Of a DNA stretch of 64,000 nucleotides, positions 7,292 to 61,501 are shown one piece after another. The position numbers were made by a program, and so were the translations under genes. Origin of the DNA: Marinobacterium iners DSM 11526 (GTDB lineage Bacteria > Pseudomonadota > Gammaproteobacteria > Pseudomonadales > Balneatricaceae); NCBI RefSeq assembly GCF_900107855.1, contig NZ_FNRJ01000002.1, positions 256,453 to 320,452 of the forward strand, written 5' to 3'. The notes beneath the pieces were generated by a model that searched no databases, had not been told where the DNA came from, and saw only the letters and a program-made list of their open reading frames with translations. Within the stretch, counting starts at the first letter, position 1; each line of letters begins with the position of its first letter.

Positions 7292-10200
7292 TTATGCCTC
7301 AGATATGCCTTGCTGTTCCAGTGCAAGCTGCCGCAGCGCGGGAAGATCCATCTTGCCACTGCCCAGCAGCGGTATTTGATCAACGGTATACACCCTTGCA
7401 GGCCGACACAGCGGCGCAATTGAGGATTTCCGCAAGCACGACTGAATCGACTCGGAATCAGCCCCCTCCACCAGCAATACAATTTGCTCGCCCTTGCGCT
7501 CATCCGGTACAGCAACCGCCGCCAGCACAAGCTCCGGCTGATCCAGTTCTGACTGCACGGCTCGCTCTACCGAGCTGAGCGAGATCATCTCGCCCCCTAT
7601 CTTGGCAAAGCGTGAATAGCGATCAATGATGGTAAGGAAGCCATCTTCATCCAGATACCCCTTGTCACCAGTCTTGTACCAACGCAAACCATCCGCCTCA
7701 ATGATCACCTCGGCAGTACGATCAGGTTCGTTGAGGTATCCCTTCATGATCTGACTGCCTCCCAGCAGGATCATTCCGCTATCACCAACCGGTAACGGCT
7801 TCAGCGAAACCGGGTCTACGACTCTGAACATGGAGCCAGGCAGTGCCATGCCCACGGTCCCTTCGCGCTGCCCCCGCTGCAGGTGCCACCACTGTGTATC
7901 GAGGTAATCCGGCAGGTTTACGCTGGCCACCGGCGTGGTTTCTGTACAGCCATATCCTTCCAGGACCGGAACGCGAAAGCGCGCCTCGAAGCCGGATTTT
8001 ATCTGCGGCGAGAGCTTCTCGGCTCCTGCCACCACCAAACGCAACGAGCTGAACATCAGCGGATGCAGTTTCTGGTTGCGCACATAAATGCCAAGAAAGG
8101 TGCTGGTACCGCACAGAATCGTGGCACGATAGCGCGCTGCCGCCTTGCCGATATTGACCGCATCGGTCGGATCCGGATGGCAGGCCAGCGGGATTCCCTC
8201 CACCAGCGGCATCATGCAAGTAACGGTAAGGCCAAAGGCATGGAACAGGGGCAGCGTTGCCAGTACACAGTCATCCTCCTGAACGTTCAACACGGCCGCG
8301 ATCTGTTTAAGGTTTGCCATCATGTTACGGTGGCTCAGCATGACCCCTTTGGGGGCTCCTTCGCTACCGGATGAGAACATGATCGCGGCGGTGTCATCCA
8401 GATCAGACGCCCCCCCATAACGCCAGTGCAACGCCCATACCGGCGTCAGCACTGCTTGCATCAGGGTCAGCAGCGACTCTGGCTTGCCAATCCCTGCTTT
8501 TACGTCTTCCAGGATGATTACATTCATTCGCTCCAGCAGCTGCCTGAAACTCAGGCCTCGCTGCTCAAGCTTGCGCAGAAACTGTGACGAGGTGACCAGT
8601 GTGCGTACACCAGCCCGCTCGGCACAACCCAGCAACACGTGCTCCGGTGATGTGTAGTTCAGGTTGACCAGCGTCTTGCCTGACATCAAAAGCGCCATAT
8701 TGGCAATGGCACCACCGGCCGCCGTCGGCAACAACAGCCCAACATTTTGCTCTTCAATCTTTCTAAGCCGGCGACTGAAAAGGATACAGGCCGTCAACAG
8801 CCTTCGATGGTTAAGCACAGGGCCGTTAAGATCGGTCAAAGCCCATTCAGAGGGTGCCGCCCTGGCTGTACGAATAAAGGCTCGCGGCAGCGTTTCTAGG
8901 CTGTCGGTGTACTCATTCCAGGCATGAATCGATAGCTGGGCAACCGTCTGCTTGACCGTTTCAGCACGGGTATCAAGCGGCAGCGGTTCACCAAATGCCA
9001 CTATCACATCACGTTTGAGCCCACGGTTGTCAAATCCCTGCAGCCGCTCACTGGAGCGAGAAAAGCGACTGCCCCACAACCCCCGCAGATAAAAAGGTAT
9101 GATCCGCGCATTCGGAACCGGACCATCCCCGCTTTCACGAGCGACCCGCTCAAAGCCACGTTTGAACTCGCCCAGCTGACCGCTGTAACTGATGGCGCCT
9201 TCCGGGAACAGACACACGACTCGGCCATCAGCCAGCAGCTTGCGTACCTGGCGCATGGCGCTGCGCGGGCCTCGCGCAGAGATGGGAATGACACGATACA
9301 GATCCAGAAACCAGCGCAGATACCAGCGCTCATAAATCGAGCGTTCCATCACAAAATGGATATGACGCGGGCAAGCCATCTGCAGCATGGCCCAGTCCAG
9401 CCAGCTGATATGGTTCCCAAGCAGAAGAGTCCCTTCTCCGCTCACCGGTAGGTGCTCGAACCCAAGCACCTTCAGGTTGTAGCGACGTCGAATCAGACTT
9501 GTAGCCATAAGACGTACAAGCGCTTGTGGCAGCAGGATCACCGCATAGATTGCACCACATACCGCCACCAGCGCCAGCAGCCAAAGCACCCAAGTTGAGG
9601 GTACCGATAACAGCGCACTTGTCACGGTCAGCAGCAGGAAACTGAGCATGGAAACGTTTTGAACAAAATTATTGCCGGCCAGCACGCGCCCCAGACGCGA
9701 CTCTTCAGCGTTAAACTGAATCATGGCGTTGAGCGGGATAATCATCATCGCACCGCTGGCCCCGATCAGCAGAAAGGCCAGCGCACAGAGGGCAATACTG
9801 TTCAGTTGCGGCAACAGCAGCAGCCCCAATGCCACACCACAGGCACCCAGGGGAATGAGTCCGACATTGATGTAGTGTCGTGACAGGCGACCCGCGATGA
9901 CAGAACCAATCATGATGCCGACCCCTGCCAGCGCCATCGCTCCCTGAATAATGAATGTGTTGTTCTGGTCCAGATGCTCTTTGGCATAGGCGGGAAATAC
10001 AGCCAGCATCACCTGACTGATTGACCAGAACATGGCGAGGCCAAATATGGACAGGAGAATGGTGCGTACACTCGCCAGCTCGGCCAGGTTACGCCACAGA
10101 CTGCGCCCACTGACGTAGTCCCGCACGCTGAAACATTGTCGAGAATCGGTTTGGCTCAAGGCCGGCAGACGCAAGGTCAGCAGTAGCTGCAGGGCTGCCC

Positions 10201-57263: not shown

Positions 57264-58169
57264 TTAGAAGTTACCAAGGCGGATACAGAGGAAGTTGTAG
57301 ATCTCGTTCACCACATCCACCTCGCAGCAGCTCTCCACACCTTCAAAGCCGGGGGATGAATTGGCTTCACACACCTTGTAGTGATCGCCGGCAAACAGCA
57401 GATCCACCCCCGCGATCTCCAGGCCCAGTACTCTGGCGGTTTCGATCGCCAGCCATTCGATTTCGGGAGTCATCGGATAGGGCCGAACCGAGGCCCCGCG
57501 GGAGAAGTTGGCCTTGAAGCTGCCCTCTTCCGCCACCCGCTCCATGCAGGCCACAGCTCGCCCCCCGATCACAATCACGCGCAGGTCTCGGCCACGACTG
57601 TCGGCGATGAACTCCTGCAGAATGATGTTGGCTTTGGGGTTGGTCAGCTCCACCATCTGCATCAGGTCTTCAAAATGGTTCAGGGTTTCGCACAGGAACA
57701 CGCCGCTGCCCTGAGAGCCGGAAAGCGTTTTTACCACCACCGGAAAACCGATCTGTTTTTTCACCAGTTCCGGGTTGACCGGAAACTTAACCAGCATGGT
57801 TTTGGGTACCGGTAGCCCGTTCTGAGCCAGAATCTGGTGACTGTAGAGTTTGTCCTTGACCGTATCGATGCTTTCGGCCGAATTGAAACTGTGTACCCCA
57901 AGGCGCTCCAGGTGACGAATGACCGCCAGCGCAAAGTAATTGGTGCCTGCCCCCATGCGAGGCAGAAAGAAATCCGGCAGCGGGGTGGACTCGCCGTTGA
58001 TCATTACGCTGTTGCGATCATCACGGGTGACCGTAAGGTCGAAGTCCTCGGGCTGATACACGCGGATATCGATGCCGTGCGAAGGCGCACGCGCAACCAG
58101 TCGCTCAAGTTCGTAGGTTTCCTGTTTGACCAGGGTGCTGTCCGATTTGTAAAGAATCCAGCCAAGCAT
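57264..58169 (-). CDS. rimK: RimK-type ATP-grasp amino-acid ligase
   Basis: A 301-residue ATP-grasp ligase. The ATP-binding strands are FPVVVKTLSGSQGSGVFLCE and NIILQEFIADSRGRDLRVIV, and the metal/active-site end is YKVCEANSSPGFEGVESCCE, close to the ESNSSPGLEGIE-like block of RimK. In E. coli RimK adds glutamates to the C-terminus of ribosomal protein S6. The N-terminal pre-ATP-grasp domain is LGWILYKSDSTLVKQETYEL. It is divergent from a GshB-like ligase and a MATCAP-type peptidase gene, so the substrate may be something other than S6. The symbol marks family membership. Confidence 0.85.
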   Translation of the reverse strand: MLGWILYKSDSTLVKQETYELERLVARAPSHGIDIRVYQPEDFDLTVTRDDRNSVMINGESTPLPDFFLPRMGAGTNYFALAVIRHLERLGVHSFNSAESIDTVKDKLYSHQILAQNGLPVPKTMLVKFPVNPELVKKQIGFPVVVKTLSGSQGSGVFLCETLNHFEDLMQMVELTNPKANIILQEFIADSRGRDLRVIVIGGRAVACMERVAEEGSFKANFSRGASVRPYPMTPEIEWLAIETARVLGLEIAGVDLLFAGDHYKVCEANSSPGFEGVESCCEVDVVNEIYNFLCIRLGNF

Positions 58170-58497
58170 CTGTCGGGGCTACTCCGAAGGGTGTGAGCGG
58201 CGATATTAAGCCCGCCACATGAGCTGTACCAGAGTCTAGGCCAAAAAGTTTTACACCGCCTGCCACAACATGAACACAGCACACTATACTCAGGCGAATA
58301 GATGAAAAAAATCCATGTTTCACCGGGTAAAAAGTGTTGTGTCAAACGGCGATATGGCGTCCAATGCGCGCACTTGTCGCACGCTGTCCAGACCTGTACA
58401 GCGGCCCTTTTTTACCCCCTATATCTGACACACTGACAGCTTCCTGATTCCGGCAGATGTGCTGCCCGGTACGTCTGTCTGTCTGCAGGAGAAAGAC
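58170..58497. other. 328-bp divergent intergenic region, rimK-like / gshB-like
   Basis: No gene is seen. It should hold both promoters; a TATACT-like box on the plus side of the minus gene (58283-58288 read as CTATAC/TATACT) and an ATATCT stretch near 58431 are weak candidates. The 20-bp near-palindrome at 58383-58402 is the main feature. Confidence 0.45.
58383..58402. promoter_or_regulatory. Near-palindrome between the two ATP-grasp genes
   Basis: GCTGTCCAGACCTGTACAGC pairs with itself in eight of ten positions. Its ends (GCTGTC...ACAGC) and CTGT-N10-ACAG spacing are the same as in the perfect palindrome at 54863-54882, 3.5 kb away, so the same regulator could bind both. Confidence 0.45.
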
Positions 58498-59535
58498 ATG
58501 AAAATCTGCTTTCTGATGTACCCCTGGGAACAAATCAAACCGGACACCGACACCACACTGCGCATGGTGCATGAGGCGGCCCTCCGTGGTCATACCGTGG
58601 CGATCACTTCACCCGCCAACCTGACCATTCGCGACAACATCAGCAGTGCGTTTTGCAACGTATTGCGCAAGGGCAGCAAGGTGTCGGACAACATTCCATC
58701 CTTTTACCGCCACGCCGAATTCCGCCGCAGCCGTCTGCCACTGGCTGGCTTTGATGCCATCATCGTGCGTCTGAACCCGCCGCTGGATACCATCGTGCTG
58801 AACTTCCTGGATTCGGTTCATGGTGAAGTGTTTATCATGAATGGACTGGATGGCCTGCGCATTGGCAACAACAAACTCTATACAGCGGCATTTAACGGCC
58901 CCGCTGCACAGTATCTGCCGGTGACCCATGTATCCAAGAACAAGGACTACCTGGAAAAGGCACTGGATGAGTCACCCGGCGAGCGCATGATCCTCAAGCC
59001 GCTGAACGGCTTCGGTGGCAAGGGAGTGATCGTCATCGAGAAAAGCGCGCGTCAGAGCTTCCGCTCTCTGCTCGACTTCTACATCGGCAGTGGCAGCAGC
59101 AGCAACTATGTCATCCTGCAGGAATACATTGAAGGCGCCGAGAACGGCGATGTCCGTATTCTGATGCTCAATGGCGAGCCGATTGGCGCAATGCGCCGCA
59201 TCCCGGCCGAGAACGACATGCGCTCCAATGTGCACGCAGGCGGTCGCGTAGTGAAACACACCCTCACAAAACAGGAACTGGAACTGTGCCGCAGCTTCGG
59301 CCCGAAACTGGTGCGTGACGGCCTCTATTTCACCGGTTTGGATGTGATCAACGGCAAGTTGCTGGAAGTGAACGTCATGGCACCGGGTGGCATCGTTCGA
59401 ATCAATAAGCTCAATCGGGTACGCCTGCAACGTCAGGTGATCGACTTTGTCGAAAATGTGGTCGAGGCGCGCAACATGGTCGAACAGCGCAAAACCGCTT
59501 TCCGCAAGGTGATCGAAGATGCAGACGCTGTCTGA
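58498..59535 (+). CDS. GshB-like ATP-grasp ligase
   Basis: A 345-residue ATP-grasp enzyme resembling prokaryotic glutathione synthetase. It starts MKICFLMYPWEQIKPDTDTT with AGGAG nine bases upstream. ATP-binding segments are MILKPLNGFGGKGVIVIEK and YVILQEYIEGAENGDVRILM; the C-terminal motif is FTGLDVINGKLLEVNVMAPGG, where the Asn is a metal ligand. True GshB joins gamma-glutamylcysteine and glycine; there is no gshA here, and the partner is a peptidase fusion, so a different peptide bond is likely. Its last 17 bases overlap the next gene, so the two are translated together. Confidence 0.85.
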   Translation: MKICFLMYPWEQIKPDTDTTLRMVHEAALRGHTVAITSPANLTIRDNISSAFCNVLRKGSKVSDNIPSFYRHAEFRRSRLPLAGFDAIIVRLNPPLDTIVLNFLDSVHGEVFIMNGLDGLRIGNNKLYTAAFNGPAAQYLPVTHVSKNKDYLEKALDESPGERMILKPLNGFGGKGVIVIEKSARQSFRSLLDFYIGSGSSSNYVILQEYIEGAENGDVRILMLNGEPIGAMRRIPAENDMRSNVHAGGRVVKHTLTKQELELCRSFGPKLVRDGLYFTGLDVINGKLLEVNVMAPGGIVRINKLNRVRLQRQVIDFVENVVEARNMVEQRKTAFRKVIEDADAV

Positions 59536-61501
59536 AGCCCAGGTTGTCAGCCTGATCGAAGCACGCCAGCCGGTTCACGCCCGGCTGCGCAACGCCGGGC
59601 TGACCATACGCATTGATGAGTATGTGCCGCTGGTATGCACCGTTTTACATGCGGGCACCAGCCTGCGGCCTGAAATTTCCTCGCGGCTGGCCATCAGCGA
59701 AGAGCAGCGGCAGCGTTTCGAGACGACCGGTACGGAGCAGCTCGCCGCCCTGCTGCCGATCACGCTGATTGTTGAAGAATCTCGCCTGGGCTGCGACCTG
59801 AATTTTCCGCTGTCGCAATGCCTGCGCAGGCGCATCGACGGCCGCAGCCTGTGGCAGCGCCCTCCCACCAAGCAGATGCAACAGCGGGCTCATCGTCAGC
59901 ACCAACGCTTCTACCATCTGCTGGATGCACTGTTGGATGCACTGGAAGAGGACCATGGCCACTGCCTGCTGATCGACCTTCACAGCCACCCACGAGAGCC
60001 AGGTACCGAAAGCGGGATTTTTCACGTCATCGCCAGTCAGGTACGTTTGCCGGAAGGTGAAACGGTGGTCAATGGTCTGCTCAAGCAGCTTGACCAGATC
60101 AGCCTTCCCAACCAGAGCGTCAGTGTATCGACCGGTGAACCGATACATCAGGGAGAGTACCTGGGTGCTCATGTGAACACCCGTCATGAACAGACCCTGA
60201 CCATCCCCTTACAGATCGACCCGGTATTCCGCGACAGCAGCGGCGCCCTGTATCCACTGGTGGTGGATGCACTTTGCACCGGGCTGCATCACAGCCTGTA
60301 CGAGACCGCCGCCATTCTGGCCCGGCAAAGGTCGGGCCAACGGATTCGCGGCCATGACCTGATGCCCAGCGAACTACCTGGTGAAGTGCTGCGCGTCGAC
60401 CGCGCACTTAAAAAGCTGGCCAAGGGGTTGGAGACTCTGTTGTACATCAACCCTATCAATATTGCCCGGGAAGAGCGGCTGTTCATGCGCAACCGTGGTC
60501 GCTATCAACCGCAGTTCCGCTATCGTCAGTTGCGCATTGACCCTTATGTACACCGCGAGAAGCTGTACCGCCTACCGGTTGACCGCATCCGCGACCCTGC
60601 CCTGCGCCAGCTCTACCGTGAGGTGATCGATGCACTGGCCGAGCGGATCGACCTGCTGGTCAGCATCGGCAGTGACCGCTTCCTGTATAATTCACTGCGT
60701 TATTACGGTGAACCTACCTCTGAAGATCTGGCGAATGCCCGTTTCCTGCTGCATGCCCCCGAACGGCCTGAAGAGCATAATGGCGTACGTTACAGTGCCG
60801 AAGAGATGATCCCGTTCTTCGAACAGAAAGCGCAGCAATGGGGGCTGGAGTGCAAGGTAGAGCTGTCGGATCGACTGCTGGCACAGGCGATGGTGAATAA
60901 CGGCCGCAAGGCACTGCTGGTGAAACGCAGCGCCCGTGCCAGCGAGGCTGAGCTGCACGCGCTGGCACATCATGAGCTGGGGGTTCACATGAGCACGTCG
61001 CTCAATGCTGCTGCTCAGCCGCTGAAGGTGTTTACCCTGGGCCTGCCCGGGAATACCCATGCGCAGGAAGGACTGGCGATTCTGAGCGAGTACCTGTGTG
61101 GCCACCTCACGCTGAAGCGTCTCAAGACACTGGCATTAAGGGTCATCGCGGTTGACCAGATGATCCGCTACAACGACTTCTGCCGCACCTGGCGCACGCT
61201 GGTGGAAGATCACGCCTGCCCAGAGGAAGAGGCATTCAAGATCACTGCACGGGTACACCGTGGAGGCGGTTTCACCAAGGATCATCTCTACTTGAGCGGT
61301 TTCAGCCAGGCGTTGAAGCTGTGGCGCGAGGGGGATATCAAGGGGCTGTATATCGGCAAGACCGGCTTCAGCTACCTGCCACTGATCAACGAACTGCTGG
61401 CTCGCGGTCTTGTAGAGCCTCCGACCTACCTGCCCGACAGTCTGGTCAACCCACAAAATTGCAGCCCCGAGATCACCTACCTGGTGAACTGTATCCGCTG
61501 A
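59519..61501 (+). CDS. N-formylglutamate-amidohydrolase-like domain fused to QEGLA/DUF1704 (MATCAP-type) metallopeptidase
   Basis: A 660-residue protein with two hydrolase domains. Residues ~20-250 resemble N-formylglutamate amidohydrolase: CTVLHAGTSLRPEIS, VEESRLGCDLNFP and LLIDLHSHPRE (Asp153-His157). Residues ~275-655 are the QEGLA family (annotated as flavohemoglobin expression-modulating protein; DUF1704). The zinc site reads His485-Glu486-Leu-Gly-Val-His490, like the HExGxH motif of the tubulin tyrosine carboxypeptidase MATCAP, and HAQEGLAILSEYL (Gln516-Ala520) should give the third ligand. No signal peptide is seen, so it is cytosolic. It overlaps the GshB-like gene by 17 bases. Removal of residues added by the two ligases is a reasonable guess, not shown. 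Confidence 0.83.
   Translation: MQTLSEAQVVSLIEARQPVHARLRNAGLTIRIDEYVPLVCTVLHAGTSLRPEISSRLAISEEQRQRFETTGTEQLAALLPITLIVEESRLGCDLNFPLSQCLRRRIDGRSLWQRPPTKQMQQRAHRQHQRFYHLLDALLDALEEDHGHCLLIDLHSHPREPGTESGIFHVIASQVRLPEGETVVNGLLKQLDQISLPNQSVSVSTGEPIHQGEYLGAHVNTRHEQTLTIPLQIDPVFRDSSGALYPLVVDALCTGLHHSLYETAAILARQRSGQRIRGHDLMPSELPGEVLRVDRALKKLAKGLETLLYINPINIAREERLFMRNRGRYQPQFRYRQLRIDPYVHREKLYRLPVDRIRDPALRQLYREVIDALAERIDLLVSIGSDRFLYNSLRYYGEPTSEDLANARFLLHAPERPEEHNGVRYSAEEMIPFFEQKAQQWGLECKVELSDRLLAQAMVNNGRKALLVKRSARASEAELHALAHHELGVHMSTSLNAAAQPLKVFTLGLPGNTHAQEGLAILSEYLCGHLTLKRLKTLALRVIAVDQMIRYNDFCRTWRTLVEDHACPEEEAFKITARVHRGGGFTKDHLYLSGFSQALKLWREGDIKGLYIGKTGFSYLPLINELLARGLVEPPTYLPDSLVNPQNCSPEITYLVNCIR

Follow-up and report, generated by a model that had tools for sequence, protein, structure and literature searches.

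Gene structure of the locus

We examined a gene pair in a stretch of 64,000 nucleotides from Marinobacterium iners DSM 11526 (this whole stretch is hereafter called the window). The pair consists of a gene for a GshB-like ATP-grasp ligase (P0002) and, overlapping its end, a gene for a protein in which an FGase-like zinc amidohydrolase domain is fused with a MATCAP peptidase domain (Table 1). A first-pass annotation of this DNA had described three genes here, namely, a RimK-type and a GshB-like ligase gene in divergent orientation and a QEGLA/DUF1704 metallopeptidase gene overlapping the latter by 17 bases. The three genes, their divergence and the overlap were all found as it had placed them. 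The conserved core of the system, however, is composed of two genes, not three.

Table 1 Features of the locus, with positions in the window
Feature	Position	Strand	Evidence or remark
RimK-like gene (P0001)	57264–58169	−	PF08443, E 3.9e-48
Divergent intergenic region between the RimK-like and ligase genes	58170–58497		
GshB-like ATP-grasp ligase gene (P0002, 345 aa), proposed writer	58498–59535	+	GSH-S_ATP PF02955, E 1.9e-53
Overlap of ligase stop and fusion-gene start, 17 bases	59519–59535	+	
FGase-MATCAP fusion gene	59519–61501	+	PF05013 and PF08014
N-terminal FGase-like zinc amidohydrolase domain (residues 1 to ~275)	59519–60343	+	PF05013, fold, motifs
C-terminal MATCAP/QEGLA zinc carboxypeptidase-type domain (residues 322–657)	60482–61489	+	PF08014, TIGR02421, fold
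HELGVH (residues 485–490)	60971–60988	+	HExxxH motif of the MATCAP domain
QEGLA (residues 516–520)	61064–61078	+	MATCAP domain

Domains of the fusion protein

The MATCAP half passed both family models (PF08014: E 1.7e-100, 337 bits, cut-off 27; TIGR02421 QEGLA: 396.6 bits, cut-off 338.65), and the HExGxH site described in the annotation is present as HELGVH. The two histidines and the glutamate of this motif (H485, E486 and H490), together with Q516 and E517 of the QEG motif, are invariant in 81 of 81 sequences; the downstream Glu motif reads QEG here and EEG in human MATCAP. The annotation had overlooked a second zinc-hydrolase domain, which occupies the N-terminal part of the same protein: residues 37–163 match the FGase model PF05013 (E 9.6e-15, 55.8 bits; cut-off 28.9). 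In the AlphaFold model of the fusion (mean pLDDT 91.1), Foldseek matched the MATCAP half with human MATCAP (7z5g; TM-score by target length, 0.70) and the FGase half with N-formylglutamate amidohydrolases (2q7s and 2odf; 0.67–0.70 by the same measure). By the equivalog cut-off, the fusion is not called the HutG N-formylglutamate deformylase (TIGR02017: 16.3 of 278.75 bits), and the window genome contains one MATCAP match and one FGase match, both of which lie in the fusion gene.

Enzymes of the FGase type, like MATCAP, hydrolyse amides that adjoin a free carboxylate. In excerpts of a survey that names 22 organisms and shows eukaryotes, the eukaryotic MATCAPs are described as taking off C-terminal residues and polyglutamate (PMC10499314).

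The ligase

P0002 belongs to the PRK12458 subfamily, scoring 448.9 bits with the model NF009110 (cut-off 408). It fell below the cut-offs of both glutathione synthase equivalog models, narrowly for PRK05246 (264.1 of 272) and clearly for TIGR01380 (224 of 299.05), while a separate true GshB, found elsewhere in the window genome (L004), exceeded both. The annotation had named ordinary glutathione synthesis as an outcome that would speak against it; by the NCBIfam cut-offs, one of them missed narrowly, P0002 is not called a glutathione synthase. The best PDB match of its AlphaFold model (pLDDT 80.5) was E. coli GshB (1gsa; TM-score by target length, 0.84), followed by RimK (~0.7). The GshB and RimK families extend carboxyl ends.

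Also among the structural matches were ATP-grasp macrocyclases, which would suit a graspetide-type peptide natural product, with the ligase modifying a short precursor and the peptidases maturing the product. We consider this extremely improbable: the closest folds are those of GshB and RimK, genes 2 and 3 overlap, and no convincing small ORF for a precursor peptide was found between genes 1 and 2 when the window was compared with one relative.

Conservation of the gene linkage

The linkage was examined in three sets of genomes. The first is a scan of named bacterial genomes, from which the best 80 of 493 confirmed relatives were kept. These loci were found in Marinobacterium, Neptuniibacter, Zooshikella, Shewanella, Colwellia, Thalassotalea, Pseudoalteromonas, Photobacterium and Methyloprofundus, and in records carrying the labels Coxiellaceae, Piscirickettsiaceae and Nitrospirota. 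Marinobacterium sediminicola (L052) is the nearest named relative. The ligase gene lies directly upstream of the fusion gene in 74 of the 80 loci: it is whole in 72 and interrupted by contig ends in two (in L102, the contig opens with the last 96 residues of the ligase; in the genome of L089, the ligase and the first part of the fusion gene lie on a contig whose sequence overlaps the beginning of L089). The remaining six are Marinobacterium genomes without a close ligase homologue, having just a GshB-type protein at ~30%; these genomes hold the hydrolase without the ligase, and therefore the peptidase can persist alone. When both genes were called whole (the 72 named loci and the window), their ORFs overlapped in 73 of 73 loci, by 14–119 bases and, in 65 of the 73, by 14–23 bases, as measured with the longest-ORF starts. 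Because it occurs in every whole locus, the overlap is more than a chance arrangement.

The second set is an order sample of 194 genomes. MATCAP was found in 44 of them and PRK12458 above its cut-off in eight, and these eight are exactly the genomes that have an FGase-fused MATCAP with enough flanking sequence; one more fused locus, the ninth, is located at the edge of a contig. The third set is a phylum sample of 398 genomes, where PRK12458 exceeded its cut-off at 16 loci in 14 genomes: 15 of them adjoin MATCAP on the same strand within less than 1 kb, and the sixteenth starts 48 bases from a contig end. In one of the phylum loci (L208), the ligase and MATCAP genes do not overlap and are split by a 2-base gap. 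Thus, the ligase and MATCAP occur together far beyond Marinobacterium, as the annotation required of a genuine module, and they do so in two gene orders. In the second order, a separate FGase gene is located within ~2 kb upstream in five of eight loci (L198, L199, L200, L204 and L206; in L199 and L204, other ORFs lie between it and the module); L202 has none upstream, and the loci L203 and L205 are truncated at contig ends. The fusion therefore joins genes that are neighbours elsewhere. It was also observed that the MATCAP proteins of L198–L202 and L204 carry an extra N-terminal region of 255–305 residues, for which no Pfam match was obtained in the two proteins scanned (L198 and L200).

The RimK-like gene behaves differently. 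P0001 passes the broad RimK-family model TIGR00768 (224.5 bits; cut-off 143.4) and misses the S6-RimK equivalog NF007764 (167.5 of 331 bits), so that S6 glutamylation, the other outcome that the annotation had set against itself, is not called by the NCBIfam cut-off either. Its adjacency to the module was seen in the window and, among the 80 named loci, in that of M. sediminicola alone. Among the 194 genomes of the order sample, only these two have a homologue of P0001 that scores more than 200 bits, and the highest score in the remaining 192 is 179.5 bits (36%); furthermore, nothing above ~43 bits was found in three of eight module genomes tested. On these counts, the RimK-like gene was rejected as a core part. 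Accordingly, from the module of two ligases and one peptidase that the annotation had envisaged, the ligase-peptidase pair stands and RimK drops out, and with the overlooked FGase domain, the set is redrawn as one ligase and two hydrolases.

Erosion in the Marinobacterium clade

The clade that includes the window is monophyletic (support 100/100), and all nine of its members have an altered FGase motif. In the window protein, H44, D93, N95, D153 and H155 are kept and R96 is replaced by F, so that the test for an intact motif (H44, D93, N95, R96 and H155) fails by R96F alone; in L054, too, R96 is the only position altered. We take Asn-Arg (N95-R96) to be the carboxylate binders. The FGase half may be failing in the window protein itself. 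L089 could not be scored for this motif. The FGase half has also diverged rapidly: for pairs with a MATCAP identity of 0.6–0.7, clade members share an FGase identity of 0.35 (10 pairs) versus 0.72 elsewhere (254 pairs; 1st percentile 0.46), and for pairs at 0.7–0.8, the values are 0.435 (15 pairs) versus 0.726 (239 pairs). The absence of the ligase maps to two branches of the tree. The ligase was probably lost twice in the clade, but the fork that sets L053 apart is weak (97/64), which leaves room for a single loss. The altered FGase pocket, the fast FGase divergence and the ligase loss, taken together, fit a substrate shared by the ligase and the FGase domain.

The same erosion may be read in another way: MATCAP would be the essential actor, a general carboxypeptidase of acidic peptides at low osmolarity, with the ligase and FGase as dispensable accessories. 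The MATCAP site is invariant in all 81 sequences while the ligase and FGase are lost or altered, and many MATCAPs occur without the ligase. Nevertheless, the linkage with the ligase survives a change of gene order, and we regard this reading as unlikely.

Low salt, regulators and neighbouring genes

A condition that induces an apparent copy of the genes in a relative is provided by excerpts of a study of Photobacterium damselae RM-71 (PMC10308900): at 1% versus 3% NaCl, a "GshB" gene (RS17020) was up 38.42-fold, a QEGLA gene (RS17025) 27.51-fold and a RimK gene (RS00405) 52.24-fold, and the authors discuss RS17020 as a glutathione synthetase. The neighbouring locus tags and the arrangement in the type-strain genome indicate that RS17020 is probably the module ligase: the type strain has one close ligase homologue, which directly precedes the fused MATCAP gene. 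The sole close RimK homologue of the type strain is the ordinary S6 enzyme (462.4 bits; cut-off 331).

The authors' reading, the name of NF009110 (glutathione synthetase), the relationship of P0002 to GshB with its narrow miss in PRK05246, and the P. damselae copy, which passes that model (288.6), would all accord with redundant glutathione synthesis and turnover. This role is disfavoured by the failure of P0002 and the P. damselae copy (242.1) in TIGR01380 and by the true GshB of the window genome; we judge it highly improbable.

Low-salt regulation would also fit peptide turnover, in which the product of the ligase would be a soluble acidic di- or tripeptide (an osmolyte or reserve) that the two zinc hydrolases degrade, with no protein being tagged. 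The closest fold is that of GshB, a tripeptide maker, and the FGase family, by its name, acts on N-acyl amino acids. However, induction by low salt is odd for the production of an osmolyte, and the eukaryotic relatives of MATCAP work on protein tails. This explanation is a serious one, though somewhat on the unlikely side.

Two kinds of neighbouring genes recur. One is an HdfR-like LysR gene (at least 100 bits), found near 47 of the 80 named loci and four of the eight loci of the other gene order; none at this threshold was found near the window locus. The LysR protein of P. damselae passes the HdfR equivalog (253.7; cut-off 240). Another is a group of rlo-type genes (retropepsin, 7TM-transglutaminase and ATP-grasp), which follow the ligase gene in L200, L203, L205 and L216 (in L216, the contig begins at the ligase). 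In L200, the sole locus scanned with profiles, TIGR02291 (RloC type), the RloB Pfam models and PF05618 were all matched. In the window, tblastn gave no match to RloA, RloB or RloC at the threshold used. In P. aeruginosa, tolerance of hypoosmotic conditions is under the control of the Rlo genes, according to excerpts of PMC12239564.

DUF413 genes were found near 41 loci. The DUF413/MaoP-like neighbours in Photobacterium (e.g., positions 8519–8869 of L124) have acidic tails, and 16 of 20 end in tyrosine, mostly as DLDY or DIDY. DUF413/MaoP was rejected as an obligate substrate of the module: the window genome has no DUF413, and it was present in 18 of 38 module genomes searched.

Other partners of MATCAP were also observed. 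In 9 of the 44 order loci (L045, L051, L158, L163, L166, L192–L194 and L197; three families, seven of the loci in one), an FGase-less MATCAP has as neighbours a GNAT-C39-type gene and a RimK-like ATP-grasp gene of 500 aa, these two names resting on reading and BLAST rather than on a family search. In L050, L159 and L049, a RimB-RimK-type fusion lies within 5 kb of MATCAP. In L201 (7158–10110; genome G316), a second MATCAP (640 aa) is preceded, with an overlap, by an AstE/aspartoacylase-type gene, that is, another zinc amidohydrolase paired with MATCAP.

In the divergent intergenic region of the window, the stretch best conserved with M. sediminicola is a block at 58298–58376, which is possibly regulatory. 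No sigma-70 consensus site was found in this region, and the promoter and terminator scan gave nothing above shuffled sequences.

Proposed function

Based on the gene content, domains, linkage and motif conservation, and on the low-salt induction published for one relative, we infer, with a little less than even confidence, that the two genes form an operon whose products use ATP to attach an amino acid or short chain to a free carboxyl end and take it off again by hydrolysis, in adaptation to low osmolarity. The direction of the reactions, the cycle, the shared substrate and its class would be as follows. Following the chemistry of GshB and RimK, the GshB-like ligase would convert a terminal carboxylate to an acyl phosphate and then couple an amino acid to it. 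The FGase-like domain, which has a carboxypeptidase-type zinc fold, and MATCAP would both hydrolyse amide bonds adjacent to a free carboxylate. Their target would be a protein tail or an oligopeptide that is, by analogy, rich in glutamate. The module, which frequently has an HdfR-like LysR gene as a neighbour, would serve low-osmolarity adaptation.

A number of observations weigh against this proposal. With respect to the genes, six Marinobacterium genomes retain the hydrolase without the ligase, and the ligase's own model, NF009110, bears the name glutathione synthetase. MATCAP occurs in 47 of the 398 phylum genomes and is ligase-adjacent in just 13; the unfused MATCAPs of L213–L215 have no PRK12458 ligase nearby. 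Moreover, a neighbouring ligase subfamily, which scores just below the cut-off (348–380 bits), was found in nine further order genomes; eight of these lack MATCAP, and the lone genome with MATCAP has it at another place. With respect to the erosion, the FGase motif is broken in Agaribacterium L072 and yet the ligase is present, and close pairs within the clade show little excess divergence (0.735 vs 0.823; 0.86 vs 0.882). Because of these two observations, and since the Marinobacterium erosion is that of one clade, the coupling between the ligase and FGase rests on few events. With respect to osmolarity, the expression data were obtained in a single other species, with 888 genes up in low salt (excerpts of PMC10308900), the rlo linkage is confined to one genus (four genomes), and the RloA-like protein of L200 falls below the NCBIfam RloA equivalog cut-offs (110.6 of 210 at best).

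A more specific version, in which the module would be a bacterial counterpart of the tubulin-tail code, the GshB-like ligase writing and MATCAP and FGase erasing on an acidic protein tail at low osmolarity, is quite unlikely in our estimation. The acidic-tailed DUF413/MaoP-like neighbours would be one candidate substrate for it, though not in the DUF413-free window genome.

Relation to known systems

Four known arrangements resemble the module. One is the RimK-RimB pair of Pseudomonas, in which, according to excerpts of PMC12239564, an ATP-grasp C-terminal ligase is likewise combined with a protease that takes the attached residues off again; that pair acts in S6 glutamylation with a retropepsin-like aspartic protease, whereas the module has a ligase of another subfamily and zinc FGase and MATCAP domains. 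Another is RloA-RloB-RloC of P. aeruginosa, where ATP-grasp and protease genes are similarly tied to low osmolarity (same excerpts); the window genes are not rlo genes, and no gene of the 7TM transglutaminase type was seen in the window. The third is the tubulin tyrosination/glutamylation cycle (TTL/TTLL with MATCAP/TMCP), which has the MATCAP peptidase family in common with the module; the module ligase is, however, GshB/RimK-like and not TTL, and the FGase domain is extra. The last is the GNAT-C39 and RimK-like loci described above, in which MATCAP also has genes for an ATP-grasp ligase and a peptidase-type protein as neighbours; there, the ligase and peptidase families are different and MATCAP is unfused to FGase.

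Pairing of an ATP-grasp ligase with a peptidase is thus already known as a kind, and the association of this ligase with MATCAP may itself be in print: the ATP-grasp amidoligase survey of Iyer et al. 2009 may list it. In the open-access literature searched, no listed title or beginning of an abstract describes this gene set, although one listed paper, PMC3091676, contains COG3930; the key-term passages of two related surveys contain nothing on it, and a MATCAP1 paper gave no match for bacterial terms in the part searched. The present analysis adds the fusion with FGase, the existence of two gene orders, the link to low salt and the contiguity with rlo genes.

It is suggested that the "glutathione synthetase" published as strongly induced in low salt is probably another enzyme. 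The bacterial MATCAP/QEGLA family, which NCBIfam names only as "flavohemoglobin expression-modulating", gains tightly conserved partners and a testable condition, low salt. If the proposal is true, the family of the eukaryotic tubulin deglutamylases would be linked to a bacterial ligase/peptidase cycle; the widespread operon and the strong low-salt induction of its apparent copy in a relative make a reversible tagging system worth testing.

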